Virus record (IMG/VR): IMGVR_UViG_3300017751_007453
Coordinates: 1 to 22,501 of that record
Reading direction: 5' to 3' (one strand)
DNA from: a virus
Length of the DNA stretch: 22,501 bases
The position numbers were made by a program, and so were the translations under genes. The notes beneath the pieces were generated by a model that did no database searches, was not told where the DNA came from, and saw only the letters and a program-made list of their open reading frames with translations. Shown in pieces: positions 1,446 through 22,383 of the stretch. The number at the start of each line of letters is the position of its first letter. Position 1 is the stretch's first letter.

Positions 1446-1453
1446 TATTTATA
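1446..1453 (-). promoter_or_regulatory. T4-type late promoter box TATAAATA
   Basis: An exact TATAAATA on the minus strand lies 13-20 nt upstream of the ATG at 1433. This is the sequence read by the T4 late sigma factor gp55. It sits four bases downstream of the TATATT element of the host-type promoter, so this gene may have both early and late promoters. An 8-mer of this kind occurs by chance in such AT-rich DNA; its intergenic position is what supports it. Confidence 0.55.
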
Positions 1454-1457
1454 CCTA

Positions 1458-1487
1458 AATATACGAAAGAGAATTTGGGGAGCCAAA
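1458..1487 (-). promoter_or_regulatory. Host-type promoter, TTTGG-N19-TATATT
   Basis: The minus strand has TTTGG (1487-1483), 19 nt, then TATATT (1463-1458), preceded by TTTCG. The downstream extension reads TATATTTA, close to the Bacteroidetes -7 consensus TAnnTTTG. It lies in the spacer between the sugar-kinase gene and the SWIM gene. Predicted transcription would start near 1451, giving a leader of about 18 nt. Confidence 0.7.
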
Positions 1488-1489
1488 TT
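1472..1489. terminator. Short hairpin between sugar-kinase and SWIM genes
   Basis: A perfect 7-bp inverted repeat, AATTTGG / CCAAATT, with a 4-base loop lies three bases past the sugar-kinase stop codon. On the plus strand it is followed by TTTT; on the minus (gene) strand the run after it is only TCTCTTTC, so it would be a weak terminator for the kinase transcript. One arm contains the TTTGG of the promoter, so hairpin and promoter overlap. Confidence 0.45.
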
Positions 1490-4312: not shown

Positions 4313-4342
4313 AATATACGAAAAGATTATGGCTACTCCAAA
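4313..4342 (-). promoter_or_regulatory. Host-type promoter, TTTGG-N19-TATATT
   Basis: TTTGG (4342-4338), 19 nt, TATATT (4318-4313) on the minus strand, with TTTTCG immediately before the hexamer and GG after it. It lies in the 71-base spacer upstream of the zinc-ribbon gene, giving a leader of about 34 nt. The downstream TATAGTTA only partly resembles a TATAAATA late box, so this site is probably not stacked with a late promoter. Confidence 0.7.
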
Positions 4343-4894: not shown

Positions 4895-5226
4895 AATTTA
4901 TATTTTGTTATTAGATTAGATAGTTGAGTACATCTTTCATACTCTTCATTTTGTATAAACATTTCATTTATTTTATTTAAAACATCTTTAAATTGAGGTT
5001 TATTTATTTCAATAATAACAGACATGTTAAAAATATTAAATAATTCAGCTTTGGGTTTTTTGTTTTTTAAAGCATCTATAATTGCTTTTAAACTTTCTTC
5101 TAGAATAAAATGGGAAAATTGTTCACTATTAGCTAAATTAAGTAAATCTTCATTATCTTCCCAAGTCAATTCTATATAAGTAACCTCTCTCTTTTCAGTC
5201 ATTTTTTTATCATCTTTTTCATCCAT
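4891..5226 (-). CDS. Hypothetical acidic helical protein, 111 aa
   Basis: The ATG at 5226 (MDEKDDKKMTEKREV) is preferred. The open frame extends ten codons further, but only to a TTG with no supporting signal. The charged N-terminus is followed by a helical body (EDLLNLANSEQFSHFILEES, LKNKKPKAELFNIFNMSVII) ending in CTQLSNLITKYKL. No catalytic motif or membrane segment is visible. It ends in an ATGA overlap with the 52-residue gene. A 39-base spacer with no convincing promoter separates it from the first glycan-module glycosyltransferase. Confidence 0.7.
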   Translation of the reverse strand: MDEKDDKKMTEKREVTYIELTWEDNEDLLNLANSEQFSHFILEESLKAIIDALKNKKPKAELFNIFNMSVIIEINKPQFKDVLNKINEMFIQNEEYERCTQLSNLITKYKL

Positions 5227-5265
5227 AATTTGAGGGGTATTTGGGGTTAGAATCAATTATAAATA

Positions 5266-6057
5266 TTAAAATTTTATTCCCCTAATAACATTCCCTTTAG
5301 GACTATGTGAATTATTTTCAAATAGTTGAGGATTCATCCCCCACTTATACCTAAATACCTCAGCAGCTGGTCCTTCAGTTGCTTTGAATTTATCTCCTTC
5401 TTTGCCATTTTTAGTAGCTGTACTTCCAAAATGGTATAAATGGGATTTATGAGTCCTAGAAAAACCTAAACCTATTAGATCTAATTTTAGGAAAAAATCC
5501 CAGTCACATATAAATGGAGATTGATACATTGTATCAAAACCACCAACAGCCATATAATATTTTTTATATATTGCAAACGGAAAAATACCTCCATCTAAAG
5601 TTAATGTGTCTTTTTTAATTGATTGTTCATACTCTATAAATGTATCATAATCAAATGATTTTGGGGTACGTCCAAAATCCATAACCGGAAAATTAAATAT
5701 GCCTGGACCTGTAGGTTCAATTTGATTTAGAGTTAATACACTTTTTTCTTTAATATCTTCTAATATGGTTATATCCCAATCTTTACCAAACACATTATCA
5801 TCATTTACTATAAAAATAATTTCATTAGTAGCATTCATAACTCCTAAATTAAGAGCTTGTTGCATTCCTTGATTTTCTCCTAAATCAAGTACATTAATTT
5901 TATCTTTATACTTATCTAATACTTCTTGGCTTTCTTCAATAAAACCATCTACAACAACAATTATCTCATTTTTATGTGATTGTTGATCAATTGCTGAAAG
6001 TAGACATAAATCTAAATAATCAGGATTTCTATATGTAGGGATAATTACGCTTATCAT
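5266..6057 (-). CDS. Family 2 glycosyltransferase
   Basis: This 263-residue GT-A enzyme is expected to transfer a sugar from a nucleotide-sugar donor in the cytoplasm, with inversion. MISVIIPTYRNPDYLDLCLL (1-20) is the classic GT2 start. EIIVVVDGF (31-39) follows, then LGENQGMQQALNLG (59-72) and the metal-binding DXD equivalent NDDN (85-88). A Gly-rich GGIFPFAIYKK and VGGFD...CDWDFFLKL lie in the acceptor half, with the latter giving the usual ED/WD-type catalytic region. Its start overlaps the methyltransferase gene by four bases (ATGA). It is the last gene of the glycan module in transcription order. Donor and acceptor cannot be told from sequence. Confidence 0.88.
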   Translation of the reverse strand: MISVIIPTYRNPDYLDLCLLSAIDQQSHKNEIIVVVDGFIEESQEVLDKYKDKINVLDLGENQGMQQALNLGVMNATNEIIFIVNDDNVFGKDWDITILEDIKEKSVLTLNQIEPTGPGIFNFPVMDFGRTPKSFDYDTFIEYEQSIKKDTLTLDGGIFPFAIYKKYYMAVGGFDTMYQSPFICDWDFFLKLDLIGLGFSRTHKSHLYHFGSTATKNGKEGDKFKATEGPAAEVFRYKWGMNPQLFENNSHSPKGNVIRGIKF

Positions 6058-18697: not shown

Positions 18698-18879
18698 AAA
18701 TCTAAAGTCCAAAGTAATGATTCAATAAAATATAAAACACCTACTAACATCATACCATAATGTGTCCAAACACCACTATGACCATAAGTAAAGTCTTGGT
18801 ATATTGAAGGTATAGCAGATCCCATAATTGAAATACTAAAAAGTAATCTTACATACTTATTATTTAAAAATCTTTCCAT
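18676..18879 (-). CDS. Small membrane protein with two helices, 67 aa
   Basis: The product has two hydrophobic segments, YVRLLFSISIMGSAIPSIY (about 9-27) and GMMLVGVLYFIESLLWTLDL (about 42-61), joined by a short polar loop with HSGVWTHY and ending in a charged WRQENN tail. It was not recognised. It is coupled to gp44 by a one-base overlap and to the mini-CorA by 22 bases, so it may be a partner of the mini-CorA in the membrane. Confidence 0.7.
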   Translation of the reverse strand: MERFLNNKYVRLLFSISIMGSAIPSIYQDFTYGHSGVWTHYGMMLVGVLYFIESLLWTLDLWRQENN

Positions 18880-19784
18880 TATAGATTAATTAATTGGTTA
18901 ATTAAAGCCATACAATTTATTTCTTTATCAATTCTAAAATTGGATTGATATGAATATTCATTAATATGATAAGCCACTATTCCTTCTTTACCAGGGGCAA
19001 ATTTATCAGCATTATCATAAAGGTAACGATATAATTCTTCAAAATCTTGAATATTAGCATCTGCAATAATTTGTCTAATTGTTTTCCAAGATTTTTTACC
19101 TGTTAATTCTTTAAGCACTTGAATCATATAATTAGATGATACAAGTACTGATTTATCAATTACTACTTCACTATCTTGAATTGATAGTTGGATAGTATTA
19201 AGCATTTTACGAATATCAGGATAATATTGGTTTACAATAATTTTTAAATCATCAGCACTACAATCAACTTCTTCACTTTTAAACACATCCATAAGATGGT
19301 AAGCAATATCTTGTTTTGATGGGGGGACAACTTTAAGTGTTTGGCATCTTGACTGTAAAGGATCAATAATACGCTCTACATAATTACAAGTTAAGATAAA
19401 CCTAGTAGTACGCGAAAACGTTTCAATGACATTACGGAGAGAAGCCTGCGCTTGAATAGTAAGAAAATCAGCTTCATCTAAAATGACCACTTTAAGTGGT
19501 TTAAAACTAGCTGATGACGCAAACCCCGAAACTTTATCTCTAATTGTTTCAATGCCACGTTCATCCGAGGCATTAATATAAAGATGCTCACAATCAAGAT
19601 TTTTAACAATAAGTTTTGCAAGAGTTGTTTTTCCCGTTCCGGCAGGTCCATAAAATATTAGATTTTGAATATCATTTTGACCTAGATATTGTTTAATACT
19701 TTTTTTAATATGATCATTTCCTACATAATTTTCTAAATTAATAGGACGATACTTTTCTACTAAAAGACTATGATTTTTATTCAT
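18879..19784 (-). CDS. 44: Sliding-clamp loader ATPase, T4 gp44-like
   Basis: This 301-residue AAA+ ATPase opens and loads the sliding clamp at primer ends; T4 gp44 has 319 residues. VEKYRP (9-14) opens the domain as in RFC and DnaX subunits. Walker A is GPAGTGKT (46-53), Walker B VVILDEAD (99-106), sensor 1 lies around FILTCNY (129-135), and the arginine-finger SRC motif is at 145-147. The lid and collar domains follow to the end, with DIRKML as sensor 2. Its own promoter (19790-19819) ends six bases before the ATG, so its transcript may start at or very near the ATG. Confidence 0.95.
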   Translation of the reverse strand: MNKNHSLLVEKYRPINLENYVGNDHIKKSIKQYLGQNDIQNLIFYGPAGTGKTTLAKLIVKNLDCEHLYINASDERGIETIRDKVSGFASSASFKPLKVVILDEADFLTIQAQASLRNVIETFSRTTRFILTCNYVERIIDPLQSRCQTLKVVPPSKQDIAYHLMDVFKSEEVDCSADDLKIIVNQYYPDIRKMLNTIQLSIQDSEVVIDKSVLVSSNYMIQVLKELTGKKSWKTIRQIIADANIQDFEELYRYLYDNADKFAPGKEGIVAYHINEYSYQSNFRIDKEINCMALINQLINL

Positions 19785-19820: not shown

Positions 19821-20093
19821 TTAAACACCTTGTCTAAACTCTCCATACATACTATATACTTTTGGAGCTTCTTTTTTAACTTCAACTTCTGATGATTGAA
19901 TAGCATATAATTTACTATTCATAGGATCTAATCTAAAAGCACCATTAAAGTTTGTTTGATGGAAAAATGCTTCTAGAGTATCTGTTAAAGTACTAAAAAC
20001 TTCTTTAGTTGGATCACCAACTAGAGACCACCTGTCTCCAGGAGGTACTCTAGTAGCGATCAACTCATTATGTTCTACAACCTTTTTATCCAT
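19821..20093 (-). CDS. Hypothetical phage protein, 90 aa
   Basis: This small soluble protein includes LIATRVPPGDRWSLVGDPTK, an STLTDTLEAFFHQT helix and FRLDPMNSKLYAIQS, ending KVYSMYGEFRQGV. The first part resembles a small beta fold, but no family was recognised. The start overlaps the GroEL stop by one base, and its stop lies next to the gp44 promoter, so it is the last gene of the chaperone transcript. Confidence 0.75.
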   Translation of the reverse strand: MDKKVVEHNELIATRVPPGDRWSLVGDPTKEVFSTLTDTLEAFFHQTNFNGAFRLDPMNSKLYAIQSSEVEVKKEAPKVYSMYGEFRQGV

Positions 20094-21724
20094 TACATCA
20101 TTTGCATTTGTGGTTTTGGATCATTTTGTTCAGGATGATCTACAACTACACATTCAGTTAATAAAATAGTTCCTGCAACTGATGCTGCATTAGCAAGTGC
20201 GGTGCATGTTACTTTGGTTGGATCAATAATACCATCTTCCCTCATATCAACTACATCGTCTTTTTTAAGATTATACCCTGCCCAGTAATCATTACCAGAT
20301 TCACATAATCTATTTGCTAACATTTCTGCTTGAGTATTATCATAACCAGCATTTGATAAAATTTGGACAAATGGTTTTCTACATGCTTTTTTTACAATCT
20401 GGTATCCTAATGAATTAGTACTTAACCCATTTGAACCATATAATAAAGCTGCTCCACCACCAGGTACAATACCTTTGTCTAATGCTGCTTTGGTTGCATG
20501 TAATGCATCATCAACTCTATCTTTCTTTTCTCCAATTTCAGTTTCGGTTAACCCACCTACATGAATAATAGAAACACCACCAATCATTTTTGCTAAACGA
20601 TTTTGTAAATGTTCAACAATATATGGAGTATCTTCTTTATCAATTTGAGATTGAAGATCATTTACTCTATTATTAATAGCATCTTCTTCACCTTTACCAT
20701 CTACAATTGTAGTTTGTTCTTTGGTAACAGTAACTGTTCGAGCTTGACCAAACCAATCATAAGAAAATTTATCAAGTTTCATTCCTTTATCTTTATCAAA
20801 AACAGTTCCACCTGTTAAAGTAGCAATATCTTCAAGTAATAGCTTTTTTCTGTCTCCAAAATCAGGAGCTTTAACAGCAGCAACTTTAAGAATACCTCTT
20901 GCTTTATTAACAATAAGTGTTGCTAAAGCCTCTCCATCAATATCATCAGCAATAATTAGTAATGATTTATTGGCATTTGAAACTCCCTCTAAAATTGGAA
21001 GTAATTCTTTAACTTGGGTAAATTTATGATCTGCAATTAAAACATAAGGATCTTCTAGGGTACAGCTCATATCTGAATTATTGGTAACAAAGAAATGTGA
21101 TTTATAACCTCTATCAAACTGCATTCCTTCCACAGTTTCAAGATAAGTTTCACCTGATTTGCTTTCTTCAATATGAACAACACCTTCTCTACCTACTTTT
21201 TCAATAGCAGTAGCAATTAATTTACCTACTTCAACATCATTATTAGCTGATATAGTAGCAATTTGTTGTAATTGTTCTTCGGAAGAAATTTCTTGAGAGA
21301 TTGATGATTCAATTACACCAATAACCTCTTTAACAGCACCTTCAATTTGTCTTTTAATTTCAACTGCATTTTCTCCATTGTTTAGATGTTTAAGACCTTC
21401 TCTAATCAATTCACGAGCTAATAATGTAGAAGTGGTTGTACCATCTCCTGCTTTATCTGCTGTTCTCAATGCAGCTTGTTTTACCATTTGTGCACCTAAG
21501 TTTTTAACTAACCCATTTACAGTAATATTTCTAGCTACTGTAACCCCATCTTTAGTATGGGTTGGTTTTTGTACATTATCATAACCTGATTGGTCAATTA
21601 ATACATTTCTACCATTAGGTCCTAATGTGCAAACTACAGCATCAGCTAATGTATTAATTCCTTCCATTAATTCAGCCCTAGCTTCAGGACCAAAATGAAC
21701 TTCTTTTTTAAAATCTACTGGCAT
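20093..21724 (-). CDS. groEL: Phage chaperonin GroEL (Hsp60)
   Basis: This full-length 543-residue chaperonin folds proteins inside a double ring with GroES and ATP. Conserved elements are TLGPNGRNVLID, the nucleotide-binding DGVTVA and AGDGTTT, the apical ELLPILEGV and ALATLIVN strands and helices where GroES and substrate bind, VAAVKAPDFGDR, DIATLTGG, the KKDRVDDALHATKAA helix with the ATPase Asp, and DPTKVTCTALANAASVAG near the end. The apical RGY is kept, but the following Tyr of E. coli (Y203) is Phe here. The tail is MQMM instead of repeated GGM. It follows GroES by ten bases. It probably folds capsid or other phage proteins. Confidence 0.97.
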   Translation of the reverse strand: MPVDFKKEVHFGPEARAELMEGINTLADAVVCTLGPNGRNVLIDQSGYDNVQKPTHTKDGVTVARNITVNGLVKNLGAQMVKQAALRTADKAGDGTTTSTLLARELIREGLKHLNNGENAVEIKRQIEGAVKEVIGVIESSISQEISSEEQLQQIATISANNDVEVGKLIATAIEKVGREGVVHIEESKSGETYLETVEGMQFDRGYKSHFFVTNNSDMSCTLEDPYVLIADHKFTQVKELLPILEGVSNANKSLLIIADDIDGEALATLIVNKARGILKVAAVKAPDFGDRKKLLLEDIATLTGGTVFDKDKGMKLDKFSYDWFGQARTVTVTKEQTTIVDGKGEEDAINNRVNDLQSQIDKEDTPYIVEHLQNRLAKMIGGVSIIHVGGLTETEIGEKKDRVDDALHATKAALDKGIVPGGGAALLYGSNGLSTNSLGYQIVKKACRKPFVQILSNAGYDNTQAEMLANRLCESGNDYWAGYNLKKDDVVDMREDGIIDPTKVTCTALANAASVAGTILLTECVVVDHPEQNDPKPQMQMM

Positions 21725-21734
21725 TTCTTTTTTT

Positions 21735-22031
21735 TTATTTATTAATTTTTGCTAAAATTTGATTTTCTGGACCTACCCAATATTCTTCACCTTCATAAGG
21801 GAGTTTTGTAAATCCTTGTGTTGGTAATACTACAATATCACCTACTTTACTAATGGTTTCAATAAATGAACCCATAAGTGTATTTTGTCCAGGGCCTACA
21901 GATATAACTTCACCCATTTGATTTTTATCATTACCCATATCTGGAACAATAATATTACCATGTTGGGTTTCTTCTGCTTCGATAGGTTTTACTATCACAG
22001 CATTAAATAATGCTTCTAAATTTTTACTCAT
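21735..22031 (-). CDS. groES: Phage co-chaperonin GroES (Hsp10)
   Basis: This 98-residue protein forms the lid of the GroEL cage. It begins LFNAVIVKPIEAEE (8-21), the standard first strands. The mobile loop around TQHGNIIVPD holds the hydrophobic triplet IIV that docks on GroEL (IVL in E. coli). GEVISVGPGQN (40-50) and KVGDIVVLPTQGFTKL (62-77) complete the barrel, with a final ILAKINK. It is clearly a normal GroES rather than the diverged gp31 of T4. It overlaps the upstream gene by four bases and precedes groEL by ten, the usual bacterial order. Confidence 0.95.
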   Translation of the reverse strand: MSKNLEALFNAVIVKPIEAEETQHGNIIVPDMGNDKNQMGEVISVGPGQNTLMGSFIETISKVGDIVVLPTQGFTKLPYEGEEYWVGPENQILAKINK

Positions 22032-22324
22032 AATCCTTTGTAATTTTGTAATTTTCTTAATTCAATTAATAATTCATCCCATCTTTCAACATACTCTTTA
22101 ATAGTTACATAATGTTCTTTTTCATTATTTAGTTTTTCTTTAGCTATTTTTTGTAAAGCTGCTCCAAAAGAACTATAATGTCCTTGTGGTTTTTCATAAT
22201 CTTTACCTTCACTACCTTTTTCTAAATATTTTGCTTGAGGAGTAATAACTTCATACACTGTATAACAGTATGAATCTTTACCTATAAAATAGGGTTCTAA
22301 TAGGGGGTCTGTAATTCTTGCCAT
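22028..22324 (-). CDS. Conserved hypothetical phage protein, 98 aa
   Basis: The product begins MARITDPLLEPYFIGKDSYC, with YTVYEVITPQAKYLE, then GHYSSFGAALQKIAKEKL and a helical C-terminus (TIKEYVERWDELLIELRKLQ). I recall similar proteins in phages as unassigned conserved genes. It heads the chaperone transcript directly behind the promoter at 22354-22383 and overlaps groES by four bases. No catalytic motif is visible, and nothing in it suggests chaperone activity. Confidence 0.8.
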   Translation of the reverse strand: MARITDPLLEPYFIGKDSYCYTVYEVITPQAKYLEKGSEGKDYEKPQGHYSSFGAALQKIAKEKLNNEKEHYVTIKEYVERWDELLIELRKLQNYKGL

Positions 22325-22340
22325 ATAACTTTTTTATTTT

Positions 22341-22348
22341 TATTTATA
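22341..22348 (-). promoter_or_regulatory. T4-type late promoter box TATAAATA
   Basis: An exact TATAAATA on the minus strand lies 17-24 nt before the ATG at 22324 and five bases downstream of the TATATT of the host-type promoter. The stacked arrangement matches that at 1446-1468. It would let the chaperone genes be expressed both early and late. Confidence 0.55.
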
Positions 22349-22353
22349 ACGTC

Positions 22354-22383
22354 AATATACGAAAACATATAATATAAACCAAC
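22354..22383 (-). promoter_or_regulatory. Host-type promoter, GTTGG-N19-TATATT
   Basis: GTTGG (22383-22379), 19 nt, TATATT (22359-22354) on the minus strand, with TTTTCG right before the hexamer and GA after it. It drives the hypothetical-groES-groEL block. The predicted start is near 22347, with a leader of about 23 nt. Confidence 0.7.

Follow-up and report, generated by a model that had tools for sequence, protein, structure and literature searches.

A probable two-part promoter signal at the groES operon and other genes of a phage related to Flavobacterium phage immuto, with late genes probably served by a separate box

We analyse a 22,501-nucleotide stretch of viral DNA (IMG/VR record IMGVR_UViG_3300017751_007453, positions 1 to 22,501; here called the window), which carries a groES/groEL operon near one end and an ORF with a SWIM-like motif near the other (Table 1). 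ORFs were called with a simple script that takes the longest ATG ORF. It gave 38 in the window, of which 19 have a match among the ORFs of Flavobacterium phage immuto and 32 a match on a 158-kb contig (G001) with largely the same order. The immuto genome is annotated with T4-type gp20 and gp23 and with a family A DNA polymerase. Because groEL and many of the other ORFs match this Flavobacterium phage, we infer that the host of the window phage is likely a member of the Bacteroidota. The 145-aa SWIM-like protein gave no match in a Pfam search and none among the phage records. The window also encodes a gp44-like clamp-loader ORF, though a search of four relatives found none of the gp45 clamp families.

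Table 1. Coordinates of the genes and promoter features in the window (position 1 is its first letter).
Feature	Coordinates	Strand	Remark
SWIM-like ORF, 145 aa	996..1433	-	near-terminal C-x-C-x10-C-x-H motif, judged by eye
TATAAATA (late box of the sequence-only reading), here predicted start region and A-rich leader	1446..1453	-	
CGTATATT, -7-type core before SWIM-like ORF, TTT directly ahead	1458..1465	-	exact in 7/9 distinct orthologous upstreams
Inverted repeat AATTTGG-CTCC-CCAAATT around the -33 box	1472..1489	-	7-bp stem, terminator-like
TTGG, -33-type element of SWIM-like ORF promoter	1483..1486	-	17 nt ahead of CG
CGTATATT, third promoter	4313..4320	-	orthologues: 21/33 distinct exact, 27/33 with one mismatch
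TTGG, third promoter	4338..4341	-	
ATATTTATA, candidate late box	5258..5266	-	~30 nt ahead of ATG of MDEKDD...
gp44-like clamp-loader ORF	18879..19784		Pfam AAA and DNA_pol3_delta2
groEL	20093..21724	-	58.7% identity to Flavobacterium phage immuto GroEL
groES	21735..22031	-	48% to immuto ORF annotated GroES
98-aa ORF, first in groES operon	22028..22324	-	no Pfam match
TATAAATA, groES-operon leader	22341..22348	-	exact 12/51, 21/51 with one mismatch
CGTATATT, groES-operon promoter	22354..22361	-	exact in 47/51 distinct orthologous upstreams
TTGG, groES-operon promoter	22379..22382	-	same distance in 44/51 distinct orthologous upstreams

A sequence-only reading of this DNA had described two places where a TATATT element is closely followed by TATAAATA, the letters of the T4 late promoter box. 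Direct reading of the window confirms both stacks, at 1446-1463 and 22341-22359, and places them on the minus strand, which had been left unstated and on which the long ORFs are encoded. At the first, TATATT (1458-1463) is separated from TATAAATA by TAGG (a 4-nt gap); at the second, TATATT (22354-22359) is separated from it by GACGT (a 5-nt gap). Each stack lies directly upstream of a gene start, the SWIM-like ORF in one case and the groES/groEL operon in the other, as a promoter would. By itself neither box is informative, because TATAAATA occurs 9 times in the window against 9.28 expected and TATATT occurs 75 times over both strands. The combination TATATT-N4/5-TATAAATA is found twice, the mean in dinucleotide shuffles being 0.033, and two or more copies appear in 0 of 300 shuffles.

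The element is longer than that reading had recognised. TTTCGTATATT is present in three copies in the window, all on the minus strand, and TTGG-N17-CGTATATT likewise occurs three times (0 in 300 shuffles); the third promoter, with its core at 4313-4320, has no TATAAATA and had been missed. The motif does not appear among the 20 direct-repeat families listed for the window. With CGTATATT itself as the search word, the consensus of the promoter family is TTGG-N17-CGTATATT-TA-N-G-TAT-N-A. Over the 67 promoters of the window, G001, a second related genome (G002) and immuto, TAT(A/T)A stands at offset 4 in 34, and exact TATAAATA follows only 4, two of which are the window's own stacks. Since TAT(A/T)A recurs at one spacing, the first half of TATAAATA belongs to the promoter itself.

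How well is each part kept at orthologous sites? A scan of viral contigs for TTTCGTATATT-N3-6-TATAAATA gave at least 119 stretches, but this search was conditioned on TATAAATA, and the test was therefore redone free of that condition. We compared 51 distinct upstreams (80 loci) for the groES operon, 9 (13 loci) for the SWIM-like ORF and 33 (39 loci) for the third site; these are related sequences, so that the counts are not independent events. At the groES operon, TATATT is kept in all 51, CGTATATT is exact in 47 with TGTATATT in the other 4, and TTGG stands in register in 44, being replaced by GTGT (5), GTGC (1) or GAGG (1) in the rest, while TATAAATA is found 3-7 nt after CGTATATT in only 12. 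For the SWIM-like ORF the corresponding numbers are 7/9 for CGTATATT, 6/9 for TTGG and 3/9 for TATAAATA (6/9 with one mismatch). At the third site none of the 33 distinct upstreams has TATAAATA in the equivalent position, and TTGG could be scored in all but 12 of the 33 rows, which have fewer than 21 nt left of the box. The motifs, their conservation and their location are direct results of the computation, and so is a marked strand bias: in the 80 GroEL loci (821,515 bases) the gene strand has 121 copies of CGTATATT and the opposite strand 9, and TTCGTATATT is distributed 43:0, 13:0 and 10:0 in three genomes.

The boxes also differ in the genes that they precede. In three genomes we took the ORFs preceded by a gap of 25 nt or more and counted the boxes in their upstream regions against 200 shuffles, with early/middle and structural classes assigned by gene content only, in regions hand-drawn from the annotated immuto gene matches. 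CGTATATT lies upstream of 50/153 early/middle ORFs (shuffle mean 0.39, maximum 3), in 47 of the 50 at 26-40 nt ahead of the start codon, and of 3/104 structural ORFs. TATTTATA shows the reverse preference, with 46/104 structural ORFs (shuffle mean 3.3, maximum 8) and 13/153 early/middle ORFs. TATAAATA is at chance level before early/middle ORFs (5/153; shuffle mean 5.1) and precedes 11/104 structural ORFs, where the shuffle mean is 4.2 and 11 is the maximum of the 200 shuffles. Along G002 (reversed coordinates), the CGTATATT promoter copies fall into two clusters, 2-19 kb and 117-168 kb; the stretch between them, which holds the structural and replication genes, has none.

Putting these results together, we consider it probable that both sites are single early/middle promoters in which TATAAATA is incidental, and that late genes are expressed from a separate (A/C)TATTTATA box. 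Where transcription starts, which polymerase acts, when it does so and which sigma goes with which box are inferred in what follows. In the phages related to immuto, the proposed layout is TTGG at -33, 17 nt, and CGTATATT, with CG at -14/-13 and TATATT at -12 to -7; TA-A/G/C-G-TAT usually comes next. The Bacteroidota -33 element is TTG, and the phage promoters have TTGG 17 nt ahead of CG at 3/3 window sites and 44/51 groES-operon orthologues, which places TTG at the host distance of ~19 nt. For the -7 element, the excerpted text of PMC9723704 gives TAnnTTTG at -12 to -5 for sigmaA of F. psychrophilum. The reader of these promoters would then probably be the host RNA polymerase with the Bacteroidota primary sigma, and CG ahead of TATATT may act like an extended -7 element. 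Combining the site coordinates with the -7 position in the excerpt of PMC9723704 puts the predicted starts near 1451 and 22347, with A-rich leaders of ~18 and 23 nt; a start set by TATAAATA, at the distance excerpted in PMC2988020, would instead give leaders of ~7 and 11 nt. A-rich leaders are favoured by Bacteroidota ribosomes (PMC6847099, in the part of the text consulted), and TATAAATA, lying over the predicted start point and leader, would then be one chance spelling of TAT(A/T)A plus an A-rich stretch.

The phage element shares with Bacteroidota sigmaA promoters its two-part form, the TA and TT of the -7 element and the -33 TTG at ~19 nt. It differs in the near-invariant CG before TATATT, in GG after the -33 TT, and in the last base of the -7 element, which is A in 94% of sites where the host has G; the base after TATATT is T in 80%. 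The excerpts of the cited literature do not mention CG as a host promoter element. The Flavobacterium-type ECF promoters with a CGT box (SM6, as excerpted in PMC9723704) likewise have CGT in the -10 region, but the phage element goes on as ATATT and has TTGG in a sigmaA-like register, a distinction drawn by description only. Among bacterial and archaeal genomes the phage element is also very rare: a search of genome_contigs for TTTGG-N14-16-TTTCGTATATT-N-ACG yields only 13 stretches, several without a second copy. Three of the 13 (L445, L448, L451) have several in-register copies each in AT-rich DNA, and several are probably phage.

The sequence-only reading had gone further, taking TATATT as a host-type box and TATAAATA as a T4 late box so that both genes would be expressed early and late. 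Its early half stands in so far as the sites are promoter-like with a -33/-7 geometry compatible with the host, early use itself being predicted; its late half does not hold up. In its favour, the stack is not a chance event, TATAAATA is the T4 box and follows CGTATATT in those viral stretches, and relatives encode a gp55-like candidate. T4 late promoters belong to structural genes and have no conserved -35 region. Their TATA box is 8 bp long and lies one turn ahead of the start (PMC2988020, as excerpted). At the orthologues of the window promoters, by comparison, no conserved TATAAATA stands about one turn ahead of the start, TTGG is kept in register, and the core belongs to early/middle rather than structural genes. 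The late-box reading of TATAAATA therefore fails, because TATAAATA is unconserved at orthologues and structural genes use TATTTATA; before early/middle ORFs it is at chance level, and the count of viral stretches had TATAAATA built into the search. We regard a dual start at these two sites as very improbable.

A different question is whether the host polymerase reads CGTATATT unaided. The promoters might be read by a phage-modified polymerase, with an activator or an appropriated sigma as in T4 middle transcription. The full motif is so rare in genome_contigs that reading it may take a phage factor and not plain host sigma; nearly all of its occurrences are in phage, and its -7 element lacks the host G. 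A second phage group (L002, L008, L056, L017, L059, L060, L071) bears on the same question: it has CGTATATT with GGA at -27 to -20, almost no TTGG, and CGTATATT copies every few hundred bases, and is possibly an activator-dependent promoter class. In L002, GGA is at this position in 32/32 sites and TTGG in 0/32, as if the upstream contact were exchangeable around a retained CGTATATT. Against a modified polymerase, TTGG-N19-TATATT has the geometry of a host promoter (its -7 part compared with the excerpt of PMC9723704, its -33 TTG with general background), and PF04542, the sigma region 2 family, is matched in only 3/8 records, once each. On balance we think this explanation unlikely, though a good deal less so than a dual start, and prefer reading by the host polymerase with its primary sigma. 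TATAAATA follows 20/32 of the L002 sites and may matter there. Its frequency points to constraint on the start region, but it does not rescue the late reading of the window because the L002 sites are also of the CGTATATT class. The remaining suggestion, that the repeated block is a terminator, operator or leader element and not a promoter, draws on the 12/67 sites whose upstream 46 nt contain hairpins no weaker than those of the top 2% of shuffles. These are a minority, and the motif is strictly oriented, 26-40 nt before starts, with TTGG in register; we find this the least credible of the alternatives, and early/middle promoters remain our preferred reading of the repeated block.

Hairpins as a general basis of the -33 element were considered and rejected, the mean stem being 4.73 against 4.47 in shuffles with the same 12 sites standing out. 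Terminator-like hairpins do enclose or abut the -33 box at those 12 promoters, for example at 5034 and 14934 of G002 (reversed), and at some of them the T-run leads into CGTATATT, an interlocked terminator and promoter. The window's own inverted repeat at 1472-1489 is weak by this measure, its folding energy being equalled in 6/100 shuffles.

Which signal, then, serves the late genes? Directly after the candidate sigma gene described below, ATATTTATA is exact in 46/46 distinct sequences (80 loci) with variable flanks, and the same site has TATAAATAT in 0/46 and TATAAATA in 11/46. Words counted in this way before 39 late genes of T4, as a control, come to 10/39 for TATAAATA and 5/39 for TATTTATA. 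Taken with the structural-gene counts, these results make ATATTTATA the most likely late signal of these phages; it reads as the T4 box in reverse complement and differs from that box at two of eight positions. Like T4 late promoters, the clade's structural genes have a single AT-rich box of 8-9 bp, 11-38 nt before the start codon, without -35 conservation, and an alignment of 64 late sites, each with one mismatch or none, has no upstream element in common. They differ from the T4 system of gp55, gp33 and gp45 in having TATTTATA and not TATAAATA, in that gp45 was not found, and in that the similarity of the clade's sigma to gp55 is through family profiles only. In the window, ATATTTATA alone is not enriched. 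Its copy at 5258-5266 is shared at the corresponding place in G001, and lies inside a middle-type gene block ahead of a small ORF.

The reader of the late box would most likely be a phage sigma that carries a region-2 domain. An ORF with sigma region 2 lies directly ahead of the structural module: PF04542 is above its cut-off in 1/8 records, and the late-sigma family PHROG 234 (phrog_234) matches 3/8 records with E-values of 6.4e-5, 9.6e-5 and 0.008. The G001 candidate scores 24.6 bits against PF04542 (cut-off 24) and E 0.0009 against PHROG 234, and the immuto candidate, immuto26A_153, is 43.9% identical to the ORF of G001 and 44.6% to that of G002. Compared directly with T4 gp55, the candidates show no significant similarity (a probability of 1.1% in hhalign; in hmmsearch, E 0.019 with one target), and a profile search of PDB sequences with the candidate gave 0 matches. 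A structure model of low to moderate confidence (mean pLDDT 63.6) finds mostly sigma factors among its top Foldseek matches, the best at E 0.04 and none below 0.001. Direct homology to gp55 was dropped on these comparisons, and since they are weak the term gp55-like denotes a candidate only. The sequence-only reading had called on a gp55-directed polymerase and had named the lack of a gp55 homologue as grounds for its rejection; with this candidate in the relatives, those grounds do not arise. A profile search for the gp45 clamp families PF09116 and PF02916 gave 0/4 records, and the ATATTTATA genes may or may not follow the T4 late mechanism. A search for phrog_12791 gave 0/8 records, with no match in the control either.

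More speculatively, a T4-related Bacteroidota clade may have re-coded both promoter classes, with CGTATATT taking an exchangeable upstream partner (TTGG at -33 or GGA near -40), late TATTTATA being read through a divergent sigma of the region-2 type with no recognisable gp45, and true dual starts lying perhaps at CGTATATTTAT overlaps and not at the window's sites. We offer this tentatively, as somewhat less probable than its contrary. Our literature search, judged largely by titles, found no description of promoter signals in T4-related Bacteroidota phages: the text string CGTATATT returned no phage-promoter paper among the matches listed, ATATTTATA with phage and promoter nothing relevant by title among the matches listed, and a T4-like late promoter with a Flavobacterium sigma factor no match. 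Marine Bacteroidetes phages with GroEL have been described, their promoters not, in the excerpt of PMC5332604. Distinct early and late signatures would sort many uncultured contigs into expression classes from sequence, and would offer a concrete test of a specificity change in a gp55-type sigma; they would also caution against transferring TATAAATA from T4. In the structural region of immuto, the early core runs into the late box, forming the overlap CGTATATTTAT, at positions 90657, 128568 and 130564 (L220/L221). These three sites precede genes that include a PhoH gene, with TTG near -33 only at the first, and appear to be better candidates for dual promoters than the two sites of the window.
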